Shown piece by piece: positions 21,266-52,337 of a stretch of DNA of 64,000 bases. Both the position numbers and the translations under genes were made by a program. The notes below the pieces were generated by a model, which was given only the letters and a program-made list of their open reading frames with translations, searched no databases and had not been told where the DNA came from. Numbering within the stretch: position 1 is the stretch's first letter; each line of letters opens with the position of its first letter. The stretch is from an uncultured Archangium sp. (GTDB taxonomy: Bacteria > Myxococcota > Myxococcia > Myxococcales > Myxococcaceae): assembly GCA_903905455.1 (NCBI GenBank), contig CAIVGN010000032.1, positions 1 through 64,000 of the forward strand. The letters run 5' to 3'.

Positions 21266-24200
21266 ATGCAGACCTCCCTTCGAACCCTCGTCCTCGCGCT
21301 CGGCGTCGTGATCGCCGGCTGTGAATGCAAGCCCACCAACGTCAACACCGACGGAGGCACCGGCGGCGACATGGGCGGCGGCGACGGCACGCTCGGCGGT
21401 GGTGGTGGCACCGGCGGCGGCGGCGGCGGCGAGATGGGCGGCGGAGCCGGAGGCGCCGGCGGCGGCATGGCCATGAGCATGGACGGCGGCTGCGGCCTGC
21501 GCACCTGCGCCTCGGCCGGCGCGAACTGCGGCCCCATCGGCGACGGCTGCGGCGCGCTGATCAACTGCGGCTCGTGCGCCCTGCCCCAGACCTGCGGCGG
21601 TGGCGGCGCGGCGTCGGTCTGCGGCGGCGACGCGGGCTGCGTGCCGGTGACCTGCTCGCAGCTCAACGTCGAGTGCGGCCCGATGGCCGATCGCTGCGGC
21701 AACCTCATGAACTGCGGCTCGTGCGCGCTGCCGGAGATCTGCGGCGGTGGCGGCTTCGCCGGCAAGTGCGGGCTGCTGGGCACCAACATCACCGACGCGG
21801 GCGTCTGCATTCCCACCACCTGCACCATCCAGGGCGCGGCCTGCGGCGTCATCGGCGACGGCTGCGGCGGCATCATCTCGTGCGGCTCGTGCGGCGCGGG
21901 CCTGACCTGCGGCGCCGGCGGCGTTCCCTACCAGTGCGGCGGCAGCAACGTGTGCACGCCCCTGACCTGCGCCCAGCTCAACGCCACCTGCGGCCAGGTC
22001 GGCAACGGCTGCGGCCAGACGATGAACTGCGGCAACTGCACCGCCCCCGAGGTGTGTGGCGGTGGCGGCGTGCCCAACGTGTGCGGTGGCGGCGTGCAGT
22101 GCGTGCCCCGGAACTGCACCCAGCTCGGCGCGACCTGCGGCTCGGTCGGCGACGGCTGCGGCAACATCATCCAGTGCGGCAGCTGCACCGCGCCCCAGGT
22201 GTGCGGCGGTGGCGGCGTGGCCAACCAGTGCGGCGGCATCGCGCCGTGCACCGCGAAGAACTGCACCCAGCTCGCCGCCAACTGCGGCGCCGCCAGCGAC
22301 GGCTGCGGCAGCGTGGTGCAGTGCGGCACCTGCACCGCCCCCCAGGGCTGCGGCGCCGGCGGCGTGGCCAACCAGTGCGGCGGCTCGGTGACCTGCGTCG
22401 CCAAGACCTGCGCCCAGCTGGGCAAGAACTGCGGCCCGGTCAGCGACGGCTGCGGCAACGTCATCCAGTGCGGCGCCTGCAGCGGCACGGGCGTGACCTG
22501 CGGCGGCGGCGGTACGCCCAACGTCTGCGCCCCGCTCCCCGCCTGCACCCCCAAGACCTGCCAGCAGCTGGGCGCCAACTGCGGCCCGATGAACGACGGC
22601 TGCAACGGCACGGTGCAGTGCGGCACCTGCACCCTGCCCGACATCTGCGGCGGCGCGGGCATCCCCAGCGTGTGCGGCGCCATCGGCGTCGACGCCGGCA
22701 GCTGCACCAACCTCTGCCTCAACCAGATGGCCTGCCCCGGCATGGCCAACGGCACCACGCTGACCGGCGTGGTCTACGCGCCTACCCAGGCCGACGCCGG
22801 CTACGGCCAGCCCGACCCCATCCCCGGGGCGCTGATCTACGTGCCGAACACCGCCGTGGGCTCGCTCGACGGCGACGGCGGCGTGACCTGCGACCAGTGC
22901 ACCGACGGCGTGAGCGGCAGCCCGCTGGTCTCGACCTACTCGGCGACCAACGGCGCCTTCACCCTCACCAACGTGCCCTGCGGCGTCAACGTGCCGGTGG
23001 TCATCCAGCTGGGCAAGTGGCGCAGGCAGATCACCGTGCCCGCGCCGGCCTGCTGCCAGACCACGGCGCTGACCCAGGACCAGACGCGGCTCCCGCGCAA
23101 GCAGGGCGAAGGCCACCCCAACGACAACCTGCCGCGCATCGCGGTGGTCTCGGGCAGCGCCGACTCCATCGAGTGCGTGTTGCCGAAGATCGGCATCGCC
23201 CCTGATCAGTACTCGCTGCCCACCGGCGCCGGCCGCGTGAAGTTCTACCGCGACAACGGGGCCCAGTTCGCCGGCACCGCGCCCGCGGCCACCACGCTCT
23301 TCAACAGCCTCGCCGAGATGAAGAAGTACGACATGATCATCCTCGACTGCGTCGGCGGCGAGCAGCAGAAGACCTTCGTGCAGCGGCAGAACCTCGAGGC
23401 CTACGCCAACGCCGGCGGCCGCGTGTTCACCAGCCACTTCGCCTACGTGTGGCTCTACACCCTGCCCAGCGCCATCTCCTTCACCGCGTCGGCCAACTGG
23501 GCCCCCGGCGGCGCCTACCCCGCCAGCCAGGACGCGCGCATCGACACCTCGTTCCCCAAGGGGCAGACCTTCGCCGACTGGGTGCAGCTGGTGAACGCCC
23601 AGGCCGCCACCTCGACGGCGGCCATCCCGCGCATCCGCATCATCAACGTGCGCAACGATCTCTCGGCGGTGAACAACCCGCCCGGCCAGACCTGGGTCTA
23701 CGGCAAGGCCTCGGGCGCCACCGTCGACTCCACGCCCTTCCAGTACACCTTCAACACCCCCACCACCGCGGCCCCGGCCGACCAGTGTGGCCGCGTGCTC
23801 TTCAGCGACTTCCACGTCAGCAACATCAGCGGCGCCGGCACCTTCCCCGCCCAGTGCGGCGTCGCGGCGGCCATGACCCCGCAGGAGAAGGTCTTCGAGT
23901 ACCTGATCTTCGACCTCTCGTCGTGCATCAAGCCCGACGTGCCGCCGGTGCAGATGTGTACCCCCAAGACCTGCAACCAGCTCAACCTCGCCTGCGGCCC
24001 GGCCGGTGACGGCTGCGGTGGCACCTTGAACTGCGGCACCTGCCCCACCACCCCGGTCCAGCTGTACTGCGGCGGCGCCGGCGTGCCTGGCCAGTGCGGC
24101 CTGCCGTGCGTCCCGCGCACCTGCACCCAGCTGGGCGCGAACTGCGGCACCCAGGGTGACGGCTGCGGCGGCACCCTGAGCTGCGGCACCTGCACCGCGC

Positions 24201-25117
24201 CCCAGAGCTGCGGCGGCGGCGGCACCCCCAACGTCTGCGGCGGCGGCACCTGCGTGGCCAAGACCTGCCCCCAGCTGGGCTTCACCTGCGGTTCCCAGGG
24301 TGACGGCTGCGGCAACACCCTCAACTGCGGTGCCTGCACCCCGCCCCAGACCTGCGGCGGCGGCGGAGTCGTCGGCCAGTGCGGCGGCGCCACCTGCGTG
24401 GCCAAGACCTGCACCCAGTTGGGCGTGACCTGCGGGCAGTGGGGCGACGGCTGCGGCAACACCCTCAACTGCGGCGCCTGCACCTCGCCCCAGACCTGCG
24501 GCGGTGGCGGCGTGCAGGGCCAGTGCGGCGGCGCGACGTGCGCGGCCAAGAGCTGCGCCACCCTGGGCTTCAACTGCGGCACCCAGGGCGACGGCTGCGG
24601 CGGCACCCAGGGCTGCGGCATGTGCACCGCCCCCCAGACCTGCGGCGGTGGCGGCGTGCCCGGCGTCTGCGGCGGTGGCGGCACCTGCACCGCGCGCACC
24701 TGCCTGATGCAGGGCTTCAACTGCGGCATGCAGGGTGACGGCTGCGGTAACCCCATCGACTGCGGGATGTGCCCCATGGGCCAGGTGTGCGGCGCCCAGG
24801 GCCCCGGCCTGTGCGGCGCGACGGGCTGCACGCCCCTGAGCTGCTCGGCCCAGGGCATCTCGTGTGGCCCGGCCGGCGACGGCTGCGGCAACATCATCCA
24901 GTGCGGCGCGTGCCCCGCGGGCCAGAGCTGCGGCGGCGCCGGCGTGCCGGGGGTCTGCGGCGTGCGCCCCTGCATTCCCCAGACGTGCACCGGCCTCGGC
25001 TTCGACTGCGGCCCCACCGGCGACGGCTGCGGCGGGCAGCTCAACTGCGGGATCTGCCCCCCCACCGACACCTGCGGCGGCAGCGGCAAGCCCAACATCT
25101 GCGGCAACCTGGGCTGA
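21266..25117 (+). CDS. Lipoprotein with 16 eight-Cys repeats flanking a central domain
   Basis: A 1283-aa exported protein. The signal ends in a textbook lipobox IAGC (C19), then a Gly-rich linker to about residue 75. Eight tandem repeats (about 76-478) and eight more (about 896-1283) share the pattern C-x4-C-x6-C-x6-C-x5-C-x2-C-x5-C-x8-C, typified by GDGCG and CGGGG. Between them, residues about 480-895 hold a carboxypeptidase-regulatory-like beta-sandwich (GVVYAPTQ to FTLTNVPCG) and an alpha/beta segment (LPRIAVVSGSADS, YDMIILDCVGGE, GGRVFTSHF, RVLFSDFHVS) resembling glutamine-amidotransferase/ThuA-like folds. No clear catalytic triad can be assigned. Probably a rigid, disulphide-rich surface protein. 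ATG 21266 gives the clean signal peptide. Confidence 0.88.
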   Translation: MQTSLRTLVLALGVVIAGCECKPTNVNTDGGTGGDMGGGDGTLGGGGGTGGGGGGEMGGGAGGAGGGMAMSMDGGCGLRTCASAGANCGPIGDGCGALINCGSCALPQTCGGGGAASVCGGDAGCVPVTCSQLNVECGPMADRCGNLMNCGSCALPEICGGGGFAGKCGLLGTNITDAGVCIPTTCTIQGAACGVIGDGCGGIISCGSCGAGLTCGAGGVPYQCGGSNVCTPLTCAQLNATCGQVGNGCGQTMNCGNCTAPEVCGGGGVPNVCGGGVQCVPRNCTQLGATCGSVGDGCGNIIQCGSCTAPQVCGGGGVANQCGGIAPCTAKNCTQLAANCGAASDGCGSVVQCGTCTAPQGCGAGGVANQCGGSVTCVAKTCAQLGKNCGPVSDGCGNVIQCGACSGTGVTCGGGGTPNVCAPLPACTPKTCQQLGANCGPMNDGCNGTVQCGTCTLPDICGGAGIPSVCGAIGVDAGSCTNLCLNQMACPGMANGTTLTGVVYAPTQADAGYGQPDPIPGALIYVPNTAVGSLDGDGGVTCDQCTDGVSGSPLVSTYSATNGAFTLTNVPCGVNVPVVIQLGKWRRQITVPAPACCQTTALTQDQTRLPRKQGEGHPNDNLPRIAVVSGSADSIECVLPKIGIAPDQYSLPTGAGRVKFYRDNGAQFAGTAPAATTLFNSLAEMKKYDMIILDCVGGEQQKTFVQRQNLEAYANAGGRVFTSHFAYVWLYTLPSAISFTASANWAPGGAYPASQDARIDTSFPKGQTFADWVQLVNAQAATSTAAIPRIRIINVRNDLSAVNNPPGQTWVYGKASGATVDSTPFQYTFNTPTTAAPADQCGRVLFSDFHVSNISGAGTFPAQCGVAAAMTPQEKVFEYLIFDLSSCIKPDVPPVQMCTPKTCNQLNLACGPAGDGCGGTLNCGTCPTTPVQLYCGGAGVPGQCGLPCVPRTCTQLGANCGTQGDGCGGTLSCGTCTAPQSCGGGGTPNVCGGGTCVAKTCPQLGFTCGSQGDGCGNTLNCGACTPPQTCGGGGVVGQCGGATCVAKTCTQLGVTCGQWGDGCGNTLNCGACTSPQTCGGGGVQGQCGGATCAAKSCATLGFNCGTQGDGCGGTQGCGMCTAPQTCGGGGVPGVCGGGGTCTARTCLMQGFNCGMQGDGCGNPIDCGMCPMGQVCGAQGPGLCGATGCTPLSCSAQGISCGPAGDGCGNIIQCGACPAGQSCGGAGVPGVCGVRPCIPQTCTGLGFDCGPTGDGCGGQLNCGICPPTDTCGGSGKPNICGNLG
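21491..22700 (+). repeat. First block of eight tandem Cys-rich repeats
   Basis: Eight in-frame units of about 145-165 bp encode the eight-cysteine module at residues about 76-478 of the 1283-aa lipoprotein. GGCGACGGCTGCGGC-like cores recur in each unit. Units differ at silent and amino-acid positions, so they are diverged rather than recently duplicated. Confidence 0.8.
23955..25114 (+). repeat. Second block of eight tandem Cys-rich repeats
   Basis: Eight further in-frame units encode residues about 896-1283 of the same protein. Spacing is tighter (about 144 bp) and several units (24120-24690) are more alike than those in the first block, suggesting more recent expansion at this end. Confidence 0.8.
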
Positions 25118-38830: not shown

Positions 38831-40576
38831 TCAGGGCATCACGAGGTTGAACTCGACGCGGCGGTTGTTGTCGCGCCCCGCCGGCGTCTCGTTCGACTCG
38901 GCCGGCTTGTCCTGCCCGAAGCCCACCGCGCGCAGCCGGCCGTCGGCCACGCCCTTCTTCGCGAGGTAGCTCTTCACCGCGTCCGCGCGCTCCTGCGAGA
39001 GCTTCCTGTTCTTCTCCGCCACGCCGGTGTTGTCGGTGTGCCCCTCGATCTGCACCAGGGGGATCTCGGGGTGCACCACCAGCACCTGGGCCACGTTGTC
39101 GAGCAGCGCGAAGGAGCGCTTCTGGATGCTGGCCCGGCCCGTGTCGAAGTACACCTTGTCGAGGATCTTGAGCTTCTCGGCGGTGAGCACCACCAGCTGC
39201 TTCTTCGCGGCGGGGCAACCGAAGTTGTCCTTCACCCCGGCCTCGCTGGGGCAGTTGTCTTCGTGGTCGAACACGCTGTCGCCGTCGGAGTCCTTCGCGG
39301 GGCAGCCGTGCTCCTGGGCGATGCCGGCCACCAGCGGGCAGGCGTCGGCGCCGTCGGCGAAGCCGTCGCGGTCGTTGTCGAGCTCAGGGCAGCCGTCGGC
39401 GTCCTCGAAGTCGTCCTTGTCTTCGGCGGCGGCGGGGCACGCGTCGAGGCGGTCGACGATGCCGTCGTGGTCGGCGTCGGCGTCGGGGCAGCCGTGGTTC
39501 GCCGCCGGGCCCGCCACGTCGCGGCACTGGTCGGCGGTGTCGTTGACGCCGTCGCCGTCGTTGTCGAGGTCCGGCGCGCCGTCCTCGTCCTGGAAGCCGT
39601 CCTTGTCCTCGGCCTCGAGGGGCGCGCGATCCTTGCCGTTCTTCACACCGTCGCCGTCGCGGTCGAGCTCGGCGCAGTCGCTGACTTCATAGGGCTGGCC
39701 CTCGACGCACGGGGGCTGCGTCAGTGGCACGTTCGCGAAGGCCGCGCCGAGGTACGCGCGCAGCGAGGGGGTGGTCGACTCGCCGAAGAAGCCCGGGCCC
39801 GCGGCCGTGTACAGCTCCACCGGACCGGTGGGCCAGCGCACGCCGACGAGGCCTTCGATGCCGGGGCGGCCCGCGCCGGTCAGCGGCGCGAAGACCCGCA
39901 GGCTGAACTCGCCGCGCGGCCCCTCGGTGTTCACCCCGGCCACCATTGCGCCGAGCCACAGCTGGCTGCCGACGCGATCGCCGGTGCTGCCGGTGACGGC
40001 GGCGAAGTCGACGGTTGCGCGGTAGAGCACGCCGAGCTCGGCGCCGAACTGCCAGGCGTCGAAGACCTTGCCCAGCTGCACCCTGGGTGCGACCTCGAAG
40101 CCGCCGTTGCCCTGCGCCGCCGCCGTGCCCACGGGAATGCCGAGGCCCACGTCGATGGCCAGCGAGACGGGCTTGTGACCGTCGAGCAGCATCACCTTGC
40201 CGTGCAGCCACGGGTTGCCCAGGCCGGCCGAGGCCACGTTCAGCGCGGAGGTGCCCTGCTGGGCGACGAACACCGGCACGTTGGCGCTGACCTCGAGCCA
40301 GTCGAGGATGCCCACGGCGCCGAAGACCTGGAAGCCGAGGCGATCGCGCAGCATCACCGCCGTGGCCGTGCCCTGCTGCGACTGGAGGTTGCCGTAGGTG
40401 TAGAAGGCCGAGACCCCGGCCCGGTACGTCATGCCGGGCAGCGTCTGGCCGTTGCCCACGAGCAGCGAGCCGCGCCCCGCCGGGTCGAGCCACACCTGTT
40501 CGAGATCGGCTGCCGGGCTCACCTGGGCCATCGCCACCGACGCCATCACCACCGCTGCTGCACCAAGGATCTTCAC
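38831..40576 (-). CDS. OmpA-family outer membrane protein with TSP3 repeats
   Basis: A 581-aa exported protein: signal peptide cleaved after AVAMA, then a beta-rich N-terminal domain (about 25-295) resembling a small outer-membrane barrel. Four to five calcium-binding thrombospondin type 3 repeats follow (about 305-425, DRDGDGV and DNDGDGVNDTADQC types). The C-terminal OmpA peptidoglycan-binding domain is at about 450-578 (VYFDTGRASI, IEGHTDNTG, NRKLSQERADAV, NNRRVEF). Cell-envelope anchoring is expected. The GTG at 40576 has GAGGT about 7 nt upstream; a GTG two codons earlier is less favoured. Confidence 0.9.
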   Translation of the reverse strand: MKILGAAAVVMASVAMAQVSPAADLEQVWLDPAGRGSLLVGNGQTLPGMTYRAGVSAFYTYGNLQSQQGTATAVMLRDRLGFQVFGAVGILDWLEVSANVPVFVAQQGTSALNVASAGLGNPWLHGKVMLLDGHKPVSLAIDVGLGIPVGTAAAQGNGGFEVAPRVQLGKVFDAWQFGAELGVLYRATVDFAAVTGSTGDRVGSQLWLGAMVAGVNTEGPRGEFSLRVFAPLTGAGRPGIEGLVGVRWPTGPVELYTAAGPGFFGESTTPSLRAYLGAAFANVPLTQPPCVEGQPYEVSDCAELDRDGDGVKNGKDRAPLEAEDKDGFQDEDGAPDLDNDGDGVNDTADQCRDVAGPAANHGCPDADADHDGIVDRLDACPAAAEDKDDFEDADGCPELDNDRDGFADGADACPLVAGIAQEHGCPAKDSDGDSVFDHEDNCPSEAGVKDNFGCPAAKKQLVVLTAEKLKILDKVYFDTGRASIQKRSFALLDNVAQVLVVHPEIPLVQIEGHTDNTGVAEKNRKLSQERADAVKSYLAKKGVADGRLRAVGFGQDKPAESNETPAGRDNNRRVEFNLVMP

Positions 40577-40657
40577 GGGCACCTCGAGAATGGGACCGGG
40601 CCGGAGTTAACAGGGCGCGCCGCCTCACTCCACCATTGCCTCAAGCGAGCGCCCGGC

Positions 40658-43096
40658 CTACCGGAGCCGCGCCTCGAGGGCGGCGATGAGGGCGGCGATC
40701 GCCGCGTCGCCCCCCTGGTCGCGCCACGTGGTCGCGAAGGCGCGCACCTCGGCCTCGCCTGCCCCGGCCCCCGGGGCCCGCGCCTCGAGCACCAGGGCCA
40801 GCCGCGCCTGCGGCCAGGGGCCGTGGCCGAAGCCCACCTTGAGCGCCCGCGCCTGGATCACCGCGTCCGAGGGGCGCTCGAGCCAGGCCGAGGCCAGCGC
40901 GCGCACCAGCACCATGCGCGGCAGCTGCGCCGACGGCTCGCGGGCGGCGAGGCTGCGGGCGAGCTCGAAGTCGAAGGTGAAGAGGGCCGCCTCGGCGGTC
41001 AGCGGCGCGACCTCCTTGATGCCGCGCGCCTCGAAGCCCCGGGCCGAGACGAGCGCGTCGGCGAAGCGGCCGGCGAGCAGCTCGGCGCGCACCACGAGGC
41101 TCGCGAGTTCCGGCTTGTCGGGCCGGCGCCCGGAGGCCTCGAGGGCGAGCTGCCGCGCGATCTCCGCCTGGGCGTGCTGGCGCGGCACGTCGTTCCCCTC
41201 GAGGGCCTCGGCGAGCAAGAGCGAGACGCGGGCGGCGCTCACCTGGAGCTCGACGTCGTCCATCGCGCGCTCGCGCAGCAGGGCGAGCCGCTCGACCAGC
41301 GCCTCGAGCTCGGCGGTGGTGCTGCCCACGCGGTCGGCGCGCTCGGTCAACGCGCGCCCCAGCGTCTCGCGGCGCAGCACCTCGTCGGCGGGGTCCTTCG
41401 CGGTGGGCTCGAGGCGCGCGATGCCCTCGTCGAAGAGCGTGCGCGCCGCGGTGTCGTCGACGGTCTGCCGGGCCAGCGCCAACCGCGCCACCGCCCCCAG
41501 GCGCCTCGCCTCGAACGACCCGGCCTCGCGGTGCAGCGCCTCGTCGGCGCGGGCCACGGCGACGGTGGCCTCGCGGGCGATCTCCTCGACGGTGGCCCCG
41601 GGCGCCTCCACGCGGGCCACGGCGATCTCCGCGCGCACCAGCTCGGCCTCGGCGTCGCCTTCGGGCAGCGTGGCGGCGAGGGTGGTGGCGAGATCGAAGC
41701 TCTTGTGCGCTTCCTCGAGGCGGCCCAGCGAGAGCGACACGGTGCCCAGGCGGGCCATGGCCCGGGCCACGCGCAGGCGCTCTTCCCGCGGGGCGCTGCG
41801 CAGCTCGGTGGTGCGCTCGTAGTGCTGCAGGGCGGCGGCGGTGACGCGCTCGAGCAGGGGCTCGACGCCGGGCTGGGCGCGCAGCCTCAGCGCGACGTCG
41901 TCGAGGAACAGCCGAGCCAACTGCCGGGCGCGGTCGCGCTCTTCACGCACCCGCGAGGTCACCACGCCCGCACCGAGCGCCACCAGCAGGAAGGCGGTGA
42001 CCGCCATGGCGGTGAAGAGGCGGTGCCGCTGCACGTAGCGCTTGAGCAGCTGCCACGACGAGTAGCGGTAGCTGCCCAGGCGCCGGCCGTCGATGAAGGC
42101 CTTGAGCTCCTGCACGAACTGCTCGCAGCTCAGGGTGCCCGCGAGCGAGGTGCGGCACAGGCCGAGGAGATCTTCGGGTGCGCCGGCGACCCGCACGGTG
42201 CCCATCACCGGGGGCGGCAGGCCGGTGACCACTTCGTGGAGCATGGCGCCGAGCGCGCGCACGTCGGCCGCCTTCGCCTCGGGGCGCTCGCGCTCTTCGA
42301 CCGGCGGGCCCCAGCCGAGCACGTAGACCTCGCCGAAGCGGCCCAGCGAGATGCGGGCGCACGACAGGCCACGGTGCGTGACGCCGAGATCGTGGGCCTT
42401 GGAGAGGCACTGGGCGACGGTGTGCAGCGCCGGCAGCAGGTGGAGCCGCTCGTCGAGGCCGTTGGCCGCGGTGAGGGCCTGGGCGAGGGTCTGGGCGCCG
42501 ACGCGGCGCTCGGCGACGTACACGCCCTTCGCCCCGCGGCCCGCCTCGTACACCGGCACCACGGCGGGGTGGTCGAGGCCCGCGAGCAGCCGCGCCTCGT
42601 TCACCAACTGGGCGTCGCTCTCGGCCGAAGGCTCGAGGGGCTCGCGCCAGGCGACGTCGCGGCCGATGACCGTGTCGTGCATCAACACCACGCGGCTGAA
42701 GCGGCCGCGGCCCAGCTCGGCGGGGGGCTGATCGGCGCGCGGCGCGGCGAAGTAGCGGTGGGCCTGCTCGTCGACCAGGTCGACCCGGGGCGGGGCCGCG
42801 GGCACGGCCGGGGCGGTGCTCTGGGCAGCGAGTCGGCGAACGCTCGAGGGCAACAGCTCGAGGGTCTGGGCCGCGTCGCCGCCGCCTTCGGCCGAGGCCC
42901 GGGCGGCGAGGCGCTCGAGCACCTGGGCGCGCGCGCGATCGAGGAAGCCGCGCGAGACGAGGAACTCGCTGAGCGTGCGCTGCTCGCCGGGCTGGGCCAG
43001 CTCGCGGGCCGCGCCCAGGGCGTCTTCGGGCGAGAGGTAACCCAGCTGCACCCCGAGCACGGCGAGCAACAGGTCTGCGCTGCGCGGCTCGCTCAC
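40658..43096 (-). CDS. Transmembrane Ser/Thr pseudokinase, paralogue of upstream kinase
   Basis: An 812-aa protein. Residues 1-90 form a helical domain shared with the upstream kinase (LLAVLGVQLGYLSPEDA, TLSEFLVSRGFLD). A kinase-like fold lies at about 125-340: the glycine loop is kept (LGRGRFSRV), but the ATP-binding lysine is Trp (VAWRE, W150), HRD is HRG (241-243) and DFG is GWG (261-263). A single transmembrane helix (about 361-380) is followed by about 430 residues of helical, TPR-like repeats outside the membrane. All three catalytic residues are gone, so phosphotransfer is not expected; a scaffold or allosteric partner of the adjacent active kinase is likely. GTG 43096 has GAGGTG upstream and overlaps the stop of the 55-aa gene. 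Confidence 0.88.
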   Translation of the reverse strand: MSEPRSADLLLAVLGVQLGYLSPEDALGAARELAQPGEQRTLSEFLVSRGFLDRARAQVLERLAARASAEGGGDAAQTLELLPSSVRRLAAQSTAPAVPAAPPRVDLVDEQAHRYFAAPRADQPPAELGRGRFSRVVLMHDTVIGRDVAWREPLEPSAESDAQLVNEARLLAGLDHPAVVPVYEAGRGAKGVYVAERRVGAQTLAQALTAANGLDERLHLLPALHTVAQCLSKAHDLGVTHRGLSCARISLGRFGEVYVLGWGPPVEERERPEAKAADVRALGAMLHEVVTGLPPPVMGTVRVAGAPEDLLGLCRTSLAGTLSCEQFVQELKAFIDGRRLGSYRYSSWQLLKRYVQRHRLFTAMAVTAFLLVALGAGVVTSRVREERDRARQLARLFLDDVALRLRAQPGVEPLLERVTAAALQHYERTTELRSAPREERLRVARAMARLGTVSLSLGRLEEAHKSFDLATTLAATLPEGDAEAELVRAEIAVARVEAPGATVEEIAREATVAVARADEALHREAGSFEARRLGAVARLALARQTVDDTAARTLFDEGIARLEPTAKDPADEVLRRETLGRALTERADRVGSTTAELEALVERLALLRERAMDDVELQVSAARVSLLLAEALEGNDVPRQHAQAEIARQLALEASGRRPDKPELASLVVRAELLAGRFADALVSARGFEARGIKEVAPLTAEAALFTFDFELARSLAAREPSAQLPRMVLVRALASAWLERPSDAVIQARALKVGFGHGPWPQARLALVLEARAPGAGAGEAEVRAFATTWRDQGGDAAIAALIAALEARLR

Positions 43097-43260
43097 GATC
43101 GCACCTCGCCGGGCGTCAGCGGGGCCAGCGGCCACATCGCGCACAACCCCAGGACGCCCTGGGCCGGCTTCGGCGGGGTGAGGGCCCAGGCCGCGCTCGA
43201 CCCGTGCGCGCGCTCGCCCGGCGCCGGCGGGGCGAGGGGCCACATCGCCAGCTCCGTCAC
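43093..43260 (-). CDS. 55-aa small protein between kinase and pseudokinase
   Basis: A short frame fills the gap between the two kinase genes exactly. Its GTG (43260) overlaps the kinase TGA as GTGA and its TGA (43095-43093) overlaps the pseudokinase GTG as GTGA, so it is in a position for translational coupling on both sides. The 55 residues contain an internal repeat: AMWPLAPPAPGER near the start, AWALTPPKPAQG in the middle and AMWPLAPLTPGEV near the end. It is Pro/Ala/Trp-rich, with no signal peptide. I do not recognise it. Without the precise overlaps it could be dismissed as a linker; the repeat and the coupling are the reasons to call it. Confidence 0.6.
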   Translation of the reverse strand: MTELAMWPLAPPAPGERAHGSSAAWALTPPKPAQGVLGLCAMWPLAPLTPGEVRS

Positions 43261-46022
43261 GGGGCCCCCTTGAGCGCCGCGCCGAGGCCCTCGAGGCCCC
43301 GGGTCACGCCAGCCGCGTCACCGGCGCTCAGCGGGTGGTCGAGGGCCAGCTGCCGCAGCAGGGCCGCCGGTGCGTCGTCGCGCCCCTCGAGCCGGTGGAG
43401 CAGCGCCCCCGGGAGCCAGGTGGCGACGTCGCCGCACTTGAGCTCGAGGCACTGCGAGAGGTGGGCCCGCGCGACCTGATCGTTGCCGGCCAGCACCTCG
43501 ACGAGGGCGCCGTAGAGCAGCGCGGTCGCGGTGGTCGAGGTCGAGGTCGAGGTCGAGGGCCGGCGCAGGTATTCGCGGATCAGCTCGTCGCGTCCGGTGG
43601 CGAAGGCCGCGATGAGCACGGGCTCCGCGTACTCCGCGCCCAGCTGCTCGGCCTCGATGCGCGCCGCCCACATCCAGGCGGCGTCGTAGTCGTCGTCGAG
43701 CACCGCGAGCACCACCATCTCGCTGAGCTCGTAGTTGCGCCCCGCGTCGGCGAGCAGCAGGTCACTGAGCAGGCGCCGGGCCTCGCGCACCACGCGCCGG
43801 CGCTCGTCGCCTTCCTTCACGGGGTCGAGGGCCCGCGCCAGGGTGCTCAGCACGCCGGCGTGGCTGGCCTGTAACGAGCGGGCATCGCGCTGGGCCCGCA
43901 TCTTCTGGGCGAGGCCCACCGCGTCGCGCAGCGTGCGCAGGGCCTCGGCGCGCTCTCCGAGGGTGAGCAAGGCGAGGCCGAGGTCGTTGCTGTCGTCGAT
44001 GATCGCCGCCGCGGCGCGCGGAGATTCGGGGGCGAGCCGGTACCAGGCCCAGGCCGCCTCGCGGGCGCGCCGGGTCATCTCGACGGCCAGCCGCAGCTCG
44101 CCCCGCGACGCGCGCAGCACCCCCACGCGCGAGAGCACCAGGTTCTGGGCCGCGAGTACCGGCACCGAGGTCGGCGCGAGCACCCGCAGGCGCTGCGCCC
44201 GGTCGACGAGGCCCTCGAGCAGGGTGAGGGCGTCGCCCTCCGCGCCCTCGTCGATGAGCAGGTCCGAGCGCCAGGCCTGGTACTCGAGCTCGATGGTGTT
44301 CACCTCGACGTCGTCGGGGCGCTGGGCCAGCAGCGGGGTGAGCAGGCGCGCGGCCTGGTCGAGGCCGGCCTTCGCGTCGTCCCGCTGGCCCAGGCGCCAG
44401 CGCTGGTGGGCGACGTCTGTCCACGCTCCGGCGAGGAGCACCCGGTCGTCGCGCGCGCCGCGCTCGGGGTCGACGTCGCGAGAGAAGGCCTCGAGGGCGT
44501 TGTGAGAGAGCTGGCCCAGCACCTCGGCGGTGCCCGGCACGTCGGCGAGCGTGGGCGCGACGTCGGCGAGGAAGAAGCGCGCCAGGCCCCGCGCGTCGTC
44601 GCGTTCGCGGCCCACGCCGACGGTGGACACCACGGTGAGCACGGCCAGGGTCACCGCGGTGGCGGCGGCGAGCAGGGCCTTGCCGCGGTGCCGCTTGAGC
44701 ACGCGCGAGGCGACCTCGCGGAACGAGTAGTCGTAGGCCTGCACGCGCCGCCCCGCGAGGAAGGCCTCGAGCTCGAGGGCCAGCTCCCCGGCGTGGGCGT
44801 AGCGGTGCTCCCGGTTCCACGCGAGGGCGCGCTCGCAGACGGCGACCAACTCGGGCGGGGCCAGCGGCTCGAGGGAGAGCACCGGCGGCGGCGGCCGCGA
44901 GCGCACCTCGGCCAGCACGTCCCACGGGCTGCGGCCGACGTAGGGCGCGCGCCCGGTGAGGATCTCGAAGAGCATCGCGCCCAGGCCCCACACGTCGGAC
45001 CGGGCGTCGAGCTCGTCGCGGTTGCCCAGGGCCTGCTCCGGGGACATGTACGAGGGCGTGCCCACCGGCCCCAGGTCGCGGCCGCCGGTGAGGTCGGGCG
45101 CGAGCTGCACGCTGGTCCTGGCGCGATCGGCGCGGCCCATCACCCGGGCCAGCCCCCAGTCCATCACGTAGGTCTCGCCGTAGGGGCCGAGCATCACGTT
45201 CTGCGGCTTCAGGTCGCGGTGCACCACGTCGCGGTGGTGCGCGGCGGCGAGCGCGTGACAGGCGGTGAGCAGGTCGGGCACGAAGGAGAGGCGGCCCTCG
45301 CGGCTGGGCGCGTCGGCGAGCGCCTGGGCCAGGGTGCGGCCGCGGATGCGGCGCATGGTGTAATACAGCGTGCCGTCGCGGCGCCGCCCCAGCTCGTAGA
45401 CCGGCACGATGGCCGGGTGCTCGAGCTGGCCGGTGACCCGGGCCTCGCGCAGGAACCGGGCCTCGAGGTTGCGCACGTGGAGCGTGTCGAACTTCACGTT
45501 CTGGGTGATCTCGCGGTGCAGCTCCTTCATCGCCACGTCGCGCGAGAGGAAGTGATCGCGGGCCACCACCACCCGCCCTGCCCCGCCGCGGCCCAGCTCT
45601 TCCATGCGGCCCTTGCGGCCGGTGTCGAAGCTGTAGCGCCCCTTGGCTTCGACACCGATGTTCTCCGGCGTCTCGAGGCTGTCGAAGGAGGTGGTGGAGG
45701 TCAGCTCGAGCTTCTGCGGCGTGGCCCCGGGGCGCAGGGTGTCGGTGAGGCCCGAGAGGCTGTCTTGCGAGCGCTGGGGCAGGCTGTGGAGGGTGGTGGC
45801 CGCGTCGCCGCCGTGGGCCGCGATGGCCTCGCTGACCAGCGCGTCGACCAGCTGCACCTGCTTCTCGTCGAGCAGCCCGCGCGAGCGGAGCACGTCCTTC
45901 AAGGTCGCGCCGGTCTCGCGCTGCACCAGCCACTGGGCACCGGCGGCCATCACTTCACTGGCGGGCGCGAAGCCGAGCTGCTGCACGAAGAGCGCCTCGA
46001 GCAGGTCGCGGTCAGTCGTCAC
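43257..46022 (-). CDS. Transmembrane Ser/Thr protein kinase with TPR-like sensor
   Basis: A 921-aa kinase. Residues 1-90 form the helical domain shared with the downstream pseudokinase. The kinase domain (about 138-425) is intact: GRGGAG loop (144-149), K166 (VAMKEL), HRDLKPQN (D270), DWG in place of DFG (D288, catalytic Asp kept) and GTPSYMSPEQ. One transmembrane helix at about 449-470 is followed by about 450 residues of TPR-like helical repeats. It includes a run of Ser-Thr alternations near residue 835 encoded by a simple GTCGAG repeat. GTG 46022 has GGAGGG upstream and overlaps the lipoprotein gene by 11 bp. It is probably the active member of the kinase/pseudokinase pair. Confidence 0.93.
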   Translation of the reverse strand: MTTDRDLLEALFVQQLGFAPASEVMAAGAQWLVQRETGATLKDVLRSRGLLDEKQVQLVDALVSEAIAAHGGDAATTLHSLPQRSQDSLSGLTDTLRPGATPQKLELTSTTSFDSLETPENIGVEAKGRYSFDTGRKGRMEELGRGGAGRVVVARDHFLSRDVAMKELHREITQNVKFDTLHVRNLEARFLREARVTGQLEHPAIVPVYELGRRRDGTLYYTMRRIRGRTLAQALADAPSREGRLSFVPDLLTACHALAAAHHRDVVHRDLKPQNVMLGPYGETYVMDWGLARVMGRADRARTSVQLAPDLTGGRDLGPVGTPSYMSPEQALGNRDELDARSDVWGLGAMLFEILTGRAPYVGRSPWDVLAEVRSRPPPPVLSLEPLAPPELVAVCERALAWNREHRYAHAGELALELEAFLAGRRVQAYDYSFREVASRVLKRHRGKALLAAATAVTLAVLTVVSTVGVGRERDDARGLARFFLADVAPTLADVPGTAEVLGQLSHNALEAFSRDVDPERGARDDRVLLAGAWTDVAHQRWRLGQRDDAKAGLDQAARLLTPLLAQRPDDVEVNTIELEYQAWRSDLLIDEGAEGDALTLLEGLVDRAQRLRVLAPTSVPVLAAQNLVLSRVGVLRASRGELRLAVEMTRRAREAAWAWYRLAPESPRAAAAIIDDSNDLGLALLTLGERAEALRTLRDAVGLAQKMRAQRDARSLQASHAGVLSTLARALDPVKEGDERRRVVREARRLLSDLLLADAGRNYELSEMVVLAVLDDDYDAAWMWAARIEAEQLGAEYAEPVLIAAFATGRDELIREYLRRPSTSTSTSTTATALLYGALVEVLAGNDQVARAHLSQCLELKCGDVATWLPGALLHRLEGRDDAPAALLRQLALDHPLSAGDAAGVTRGLEGLGAALKGAP

Positions 46023-52098: not shown

Positions 52099-52337
52099 AG
52101 ACCGCGGCGTTGGTGCTGGGCCTCGTGCTGCTGCTCATCGCGCTCGACTCGTGCAAGCCAGCGCGCAAGGCCGTGCGCCGGGCCCGAGAGACCCACCGCA
52201 CCGCCGCCACCCGCCCGCGGTCTCCCTCTCCCTGCGCAAGCGGGGAGAGGGCCGGGGTGAGGGGCCACGCTCCGACGTCACCACCCACCCTTTCAGAACA
52301 GGGCGCCGTCGTGCGCCGGCCGCTCGATCTCCGCTGA
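52095..52337 (+). CDS. Small exported protein coupled to recA, carries REP-like element
   Basis: An 80-aa frame whose GTG overlaps the recA stop (GTGA). It starts with a hydrophobic segment and a possible lipobox ([20 protein letters not shown]). After about residue 38 the sequence is encoded by the REP-like repeat ([16 protein letters not shown]), so the original C-terminus has probably been replaced or extended by the insertion. Function unknown. It may be a degraded gene. Confidence 0.5.
52224..52264. repeat. REP-like palindromic element
   Basis: CCCTCTCCC (52224-52232), a 10-nt loop and GGGAGAGGG (52243-52251) form a perfect 9-bp stem, followed by GGGTGAGGGG (52255-52264), which is also at 17766-17775. 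It lies inside the small frame coupled to recA. Such intergenic or intragenic palindromes are common in high-GC genomes. Confidence 0.6.

Follow-up and report, generated by a model that had tools for sequence, protein, structure and literature searches.

Experiments in E. coli and Haloferax have shown that translational coupling of neighbouring genes needs an overlap or a very short spacing, and in E. coli coupling is almost abolished at a spacing of +38 nt (PMC10666635). Can an operon survive the insertion of a repeat into such an overlap? A relevant arrangement is that of the mycobacterial interspersed repetitive units (MIRU; Supply et al. 1997, as summarised in PMC12548453), in which a frame inside a repeat seated at a start codon is coupled to the gene at −4 spacing.

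The locus considered here lies in a window of 64,000 nucleotides, a stretch of contig CAIVGN010000032.1 from an uncultured Archangium sp. (Myxococcota; assembly GCA_903905455.1). The gap between a protein kinase gene and a pseudokinase gene is filled by a frame of 55 codons, which a preliminary description took to be a small protein, possibly a regulator or bridge of the kinase pair. We lean, with modest confidence, towards a different reading: the frame would be a relay frame formed from an inserted and tandemly amplified intergenic repeat, keeping the kinase and the pseudokinase coupled, and its peptide would be incidental.

The 55-codon frame and its neighbours

The features of the locus are as follows, read from the sequence unless a source is given.

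43257..46022, minus strand: upstream Ser/Thr protein kinase, 921 aa (Pfam Pkinase, 3.4e-29)
43265..43271, minus strand: AAGGGGG, possible Shine-Dalgarno sequence for the 55-codon frame, within the kinase gene; AGGAGG is at the matching place in G022, a genome of another genus
43257..43260, minus strand: GTGA, kinase stop and start of the 55-codon frame; probably the ancestral pseudokinase start site, given the direct GTGA overlap at the G022 junction
43093..43260, minus strand: proposed relay frame, 55 codons, from GTG at 43260 to TGA at 43093
43195..43248, minus strand: 54-nt repeat unit A (AMWPLAPPAPGERAHGSS), with a hairpin-like part that resembles a dispersed repeat
43141..43194, minus strand: 54-nt repeat unit B (AAWALTPPKPAQGVLGLC)
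43096..43140, minus strand: partial repeat unit C (AMWPLAPLTPGEVRS)
43104..43107, minus strand: GAGG, possible Shine-Dalgarno sequence for the pseudokinase, within the 55-codon frame and 7 nt before the pseudokinase GTG
43093..43096, minus strand: GTGA, stop of the 55-codon frame and present pseudokinase start (GTG at 43096), the start also picked by our gene caller
40658..43096, minus strand: downstream pseudokinase, 812 aa (Pfam Pkinase, 3.8e-8)

The kinase has canonical motifs (VAMK, HRDLKPQN, DWG). The downstream protein is its paralogue with degraded motifs (VAWR, HRGLSCAR, GWG), lacking the catalytic lysine, the HRD aspartate, and the DFG aspartate, and the label of pseudokinase that it had been given is fair. 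The orthologue in G022 is only partly degraded, with VAVK and HRD kept and EWG in place of DFG. A search for a myxobacterial pseudokinase pair returned nothing closely relevant in the literature covered.

The frame is 168 nt long and contains no internal stop codon. At both of its junctions the stop and start codons overlap by 4 nt (GTGA), which is the geometry of termination-reinitiation; in these respects the preliminary description was accurate. The internal repeat that it reported proved to be more regular than described, since the frame consists of one 54-nt (18-codon) unit present three times, with the units in register with the codons. The outer two units are 86% identical over 36 nt and the middle unit is 67% identical; Tandem Repeats Finder places the repeat at 43104-43242 with a period of 54.

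Where did the inserted DNA come from? As a whole the insert is single-copy in its own genome. The best DNA match there (26 nt, 92%) is a true copy of a dispersed hairpin repeat, to which the insert is more similar than are 99.6% of dinucleotide shuffles; about 1% of random window stretches score equally well, and for this reason derivation from the hairpin repeat is probable rather than proven. A 27-nt match at G000:C140 concerns the kinase gene and not the insert. The RNA of the gap folds no more stably than shuffled sequences (z 0.76), and Rfam gave no match within the 64-kb window.

On the opposite strand, an open frame of 1411 aa at 39038-43273 (+) overlaps in antisense not only the 55-codon frame but also the pseudokinase and the gene at 38831-40582. 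It is probably a high-GC shadow frame and serves as a reminder that open frames carry little meaning in such DNA.

The same gap in related genomes

Is the small protein shared by relatives? When the 55-aa sequence was compared with 60 relatives, only background matches were found apart from the sequence itself, and Pfam has no family for it; a conserved small protein was rejected on these grounds. Orthologues of the pseudokinase are present in four other genomes of the order, and searches of the whole family, the whole order, and contigs added none. In one of them, G018, no kinase is seen immediately upstream. In G022, the two genes have no insert between them: kinase stop and pseudokinase start share a GTGA, and an AGGAGG within the kinase gene closely precedes it. 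In the two congeners, G005 and G003, the orthologous gap is filled by inserts between which no similarity is evident. In each, a closed frame of 34 codons begins at the old RTGA and runs from ATGA to TTGA in G005 and from GTGA to ATGA in G003. Both inserts measure 101 nt from overlap to overlap, which is taken to be a coincidence. The TTG start in G005 is assigned from the strong Shine-Dalgarno sequence that precedes it (AAGGAGAGGGAGAG) and from the position of orthologous starts. Third-position GC of the G005 and G003 frames is only 0.57 and 0.77.

The two congener inserts are made of dispersed repeats. In G003, the insert is an almost perfect palindrome, which has further copies dispersed over G003 and G004 but no match in the other four genomes of the genus. 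The G005 insert carries the hairpin repeat, close to GGCCCCTCACCCCGGCCCTCTCCCCGCTTCGCAGGGCGAGGGAG of the window's genome, which has 40 or more matches in five of the six genomes of the genus.

G003:C14, 1388-1492 (L016): palindrome CAAAAAGGGGACAGGCTGCTTTTGC..., matched dozens of times in G003 and G004
52221..52266, minus strand: separate copy in the window of the hairpin repeat of the G005 gap

In all three species with an insert-bearing pair, then, the frame is closed and overlaps both neighbours by NTGA. Given an NTGA start, the chance that two relatives are closed in phase is about 0.04 (a phase of 1/3 and an openness of about 0.6 per insert), and it would be smaller still with the NTGA itself treated as a chance event. 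Only three species have an insert-bearing pair, and they share ancestry. The gap sequences themselves are not homologous among the relatives. What recurs is, to judge from these gaps, the reading-frame geometry and not a protein. The comparison of the same gap in relatives, which the preliminary description had proposed as a check, thus gave a divided answer: a coupled frame is present in both congeners that keep the gene pair, and the protein is not shared. A regulator or bridge protein is left unsupported, with no homologue or Pfam family, congener frames that consist of unrelated dispersed repeats, and no frame at all in G022. The coupling part of that interpretation is plausible.

Two further observations concern repeats in the window's genome. 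Many copies of the hairpin repeat (52221-52266 (-), loci L065-L084) have TTA or TCA within a few bases after the repeat end, as if they were placed just after the stop codons of opposite-strand genes, as judged without a control. At 21488-24765, the window contains tandem arrays that are long and degenerate, have periods of 144-147 nt, abound in TGCGGC, and probably encode a cysteine- and glycine-rich repeat protein.

Closed frames elsewhere in the genus

How common is this geometry? Genes were predicted by a simple caller based on codons, applied to about 2.9 Mb of sequence; the caller reproduces both kinase boundaries and finds the −4 overlap to be the commonest distance. By these calls, the genus has 534 gaps of 30-300 nt between co-directional genes, of which 28 (5%) are filled by a closed frame that starts at a DTGA upstream and ends at an NTGA downstream; in two other genera the count is 3 of 214. 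Dinucleotide shuffles of the window's insert leave the frame open in 59% of cases. The claim that so precise a fit is unlikely by chance was therefore overstated. In a first, discovery set from the genus, gaps with both motifs had them in the closing frame significantly often (25 of 38). A replication of this genome-wide bias, fixed before more sequence was added, failed (8 of 21, p 0.4), and the pooled count of 33 of 59 includes the discovery set and hence is not independent evidence. Selection for frame closure is for these reasons suggested and not shown.

A more specific case is a dispersed element with a period of 86 nt, often in tandem, that is present in G003, G004, and G005. The search covered 145 genomes of the order and gave no match in the other 142, among them the window's own. 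The element consists of RTGA and 82 nt, followed by ATGA, and tandem copies have the ATGA in common. Of 28 local matches, 15 have a right end that coincides exactly with the downstream gene's start codon. An exact span from upstream stop to downstream start is seen for five single copies and for one tandem array. The layout corresponds to that described for mycobacterial MIRU (PMC12548453). Examples of the element are listed here.

G003:C47:175496-175585: 86-nt element
G003:C58:383805-383980: 86-nt element
G003:C36:246003-246331: 86-nt element
G005:C86:11275-11364: 86-nt element

For the 29-aa peptide of the element, 326 codon differences of a single base were counted, and the 98 synonymous ones make up 0.30 of them, where 0.297 is expected at random; variable columns are spread over the codon positions as 11, 11, and 12; by these counts the peptide is unconstrained. 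Rfam gave no match at the one copy submitted, and a search for a myxobacterial start-codon repeat found nothing closely relevant in the literature covered. A relationship between the element and the window's insert was considered and rejected on a shuffle test, which detected no sequence relation (p 0.97 for DNA, 0.69 for protein).

A possible relay and its known counterparts

How might the pair have remained coupled? The kinase and pseudokinase genes may originally have overlapped by 4 nt (RTGA), with a Shine-Dalgarno sequence in the last part of the kinase gene. Repeat DNA would then have landed in this overlap, in the window's genus. The old start codon would now open a short frame through the insert, whose TGA overlaps the displaced pseudokinase start; ribosomes that finish the kinase could translate the short frame by reinitiating at its start and reach the pseudokinase by a second reinitiation. 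Coupling would thereby survive an insert that would otherwise abolish it. By the spacing limits found in E. coli and Haloferax, inserts leaving 97 to 160 nt between stop and start should break the coupling of the pair if no frame takes ribosomes over the gap. It counts in favour of a relay that the dispersed 86-nt element of the genus has exactly this closed-frame geometry from stop to start, and that the peptide of the element is unconstrained.

It counts against a relay that the pseudokinase has a plausible Shine-Dalgarno sequence of its own in the window's genome and in G005, and may start independently. This is the core of the main rival explanation, according to which repeats were inserted, the pseudokinase starts from its own signal, nothing is relayed, and the closed frames are leftovers of RTGA at both ends and high GC. 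The GAGG 7 nt before the GTG and AAGGAGAGGGAGAG before the TTG in G005 fit this account, as do the openness of about 60% of shuffles, a closing phase of only one in three, the closed frames that already fill 5% of such gaps, and the phase bias that did not replicate. A neutral spacer nevertheless sits poorly with closure in all three species despite unrelated inserts, and with the existence of an element family in the genus whose right end so often coincides with a downstream start codon; we regard it as rather unlikely.

Coding-like third positions in the window's frame also count against a relay, which does not need them. They are the best remaining argument for a functional 55-aa repeat peptide specific to the window's species, for example a regulator of the kinase pair. 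GC by codon position is 0.73, 0.68, and 0.96, the A/T bases are distributed over the codon positions as 14, 17, and 1, third-position differences among the 54-nt units are mostly G/C exchanges (Fisher p 0.02), and the coding score is above that of out-of-frame pieces. However, that score is below every in-frame kinase piece tested, and tandem copying amplifies whatever bias the first unit had, so that such composition argues only weakly for translation. With neither a homologue in relatives nor a family, and with its absence from the orthologous gaps, a functional peptide is improbable. The pseudokinase frame is also open through the insert, with a GTG at 43243, and the gap could in principle be an N-terminal extension of the pseudokinase. 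In that frame, however, GC by position is 0.98, 0.73, and 0.69, a non-coding composition, and the orthologues start 6-8 residues ahead of the conserved LAVLGVQLG segment, while our gene caller places the start at 43096; the extension was rejected on composition and orthologue starts and has very little to recommend it.

The relay reading can be extended beyond this locus. Tentatively, in this Archangium-like genus, unrelated short repeats in 4-nt overlaps may be tolerated mainly if they leave a closed relay frame, so that relay frames would arise repeatedly and be selected for the frame and not for the peptide; the genus-restricted 86-nt RTGA element would then be the specialised version, the myxobacterial equivalent of MIRU. 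A small frame recognised only by its geometry is readily mistaken for a new protein, and the present case shows how a comparison of one gap across relatives can tell whether it is a protein or the reading-frame geometry that is conserved. Were the relay reading true, it would show how an operon can survive the insertion of a repeat where genes overlap, and a second bacterial phylum would be known to have a dispersed start-codon element with a coupled frame of its own. The 86-nt element, with its many natural copies, would allow relay translation to be tested directly.

How does the locus compare with described systems? Termination-reinitiation is known at 4-nt overlaps (Huber et al. 2019, PMC6728339; 2023, PMC10666635), and both junctions of the 55-codon frame are classical −4 GTGA overlaps. 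They differ from those systems in that two overlaps lie in series across an inserted frame, where the described cases have one between two genes. The G003 palindrome and the hairpin repeat resemble REP-like palindromes (compare PMC3733652) in being short, dispersed, and palindromic, but here their place is within an operon, where they leave a frame that is coupled. Like the window's insert, the 86-nt element extends from an upstream stop (RTGA) to a downstream start (ATGA in the element), leaves a closed coupled frame, and occurs in tandem; the two have no sequence in common, and the window's genome lacks the element.

Another close likeness is that to MIRU, which are short repeats, often tandem, seated at start codons, there too within a signalling gene pair (PMC12548453). 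An insert at a start codon with a frame coupled by 4 nt is found in the window (GTGA at 43093-43096) and in both congeners. Tandem units are present as well, as three 54-nt units, although a single frame spans all of them. A dispersed, multi-copy repeat is clear in G003 and G005, whereas the window's insert is single-copy as a whole, part of unit A resembling the hairpin repeat, and it belongs to a myxobacterial genome. The window's insert may thus be regarded as a MIRU-type coupled repeat insertion by analogy, and not as a member of the MIRU family.
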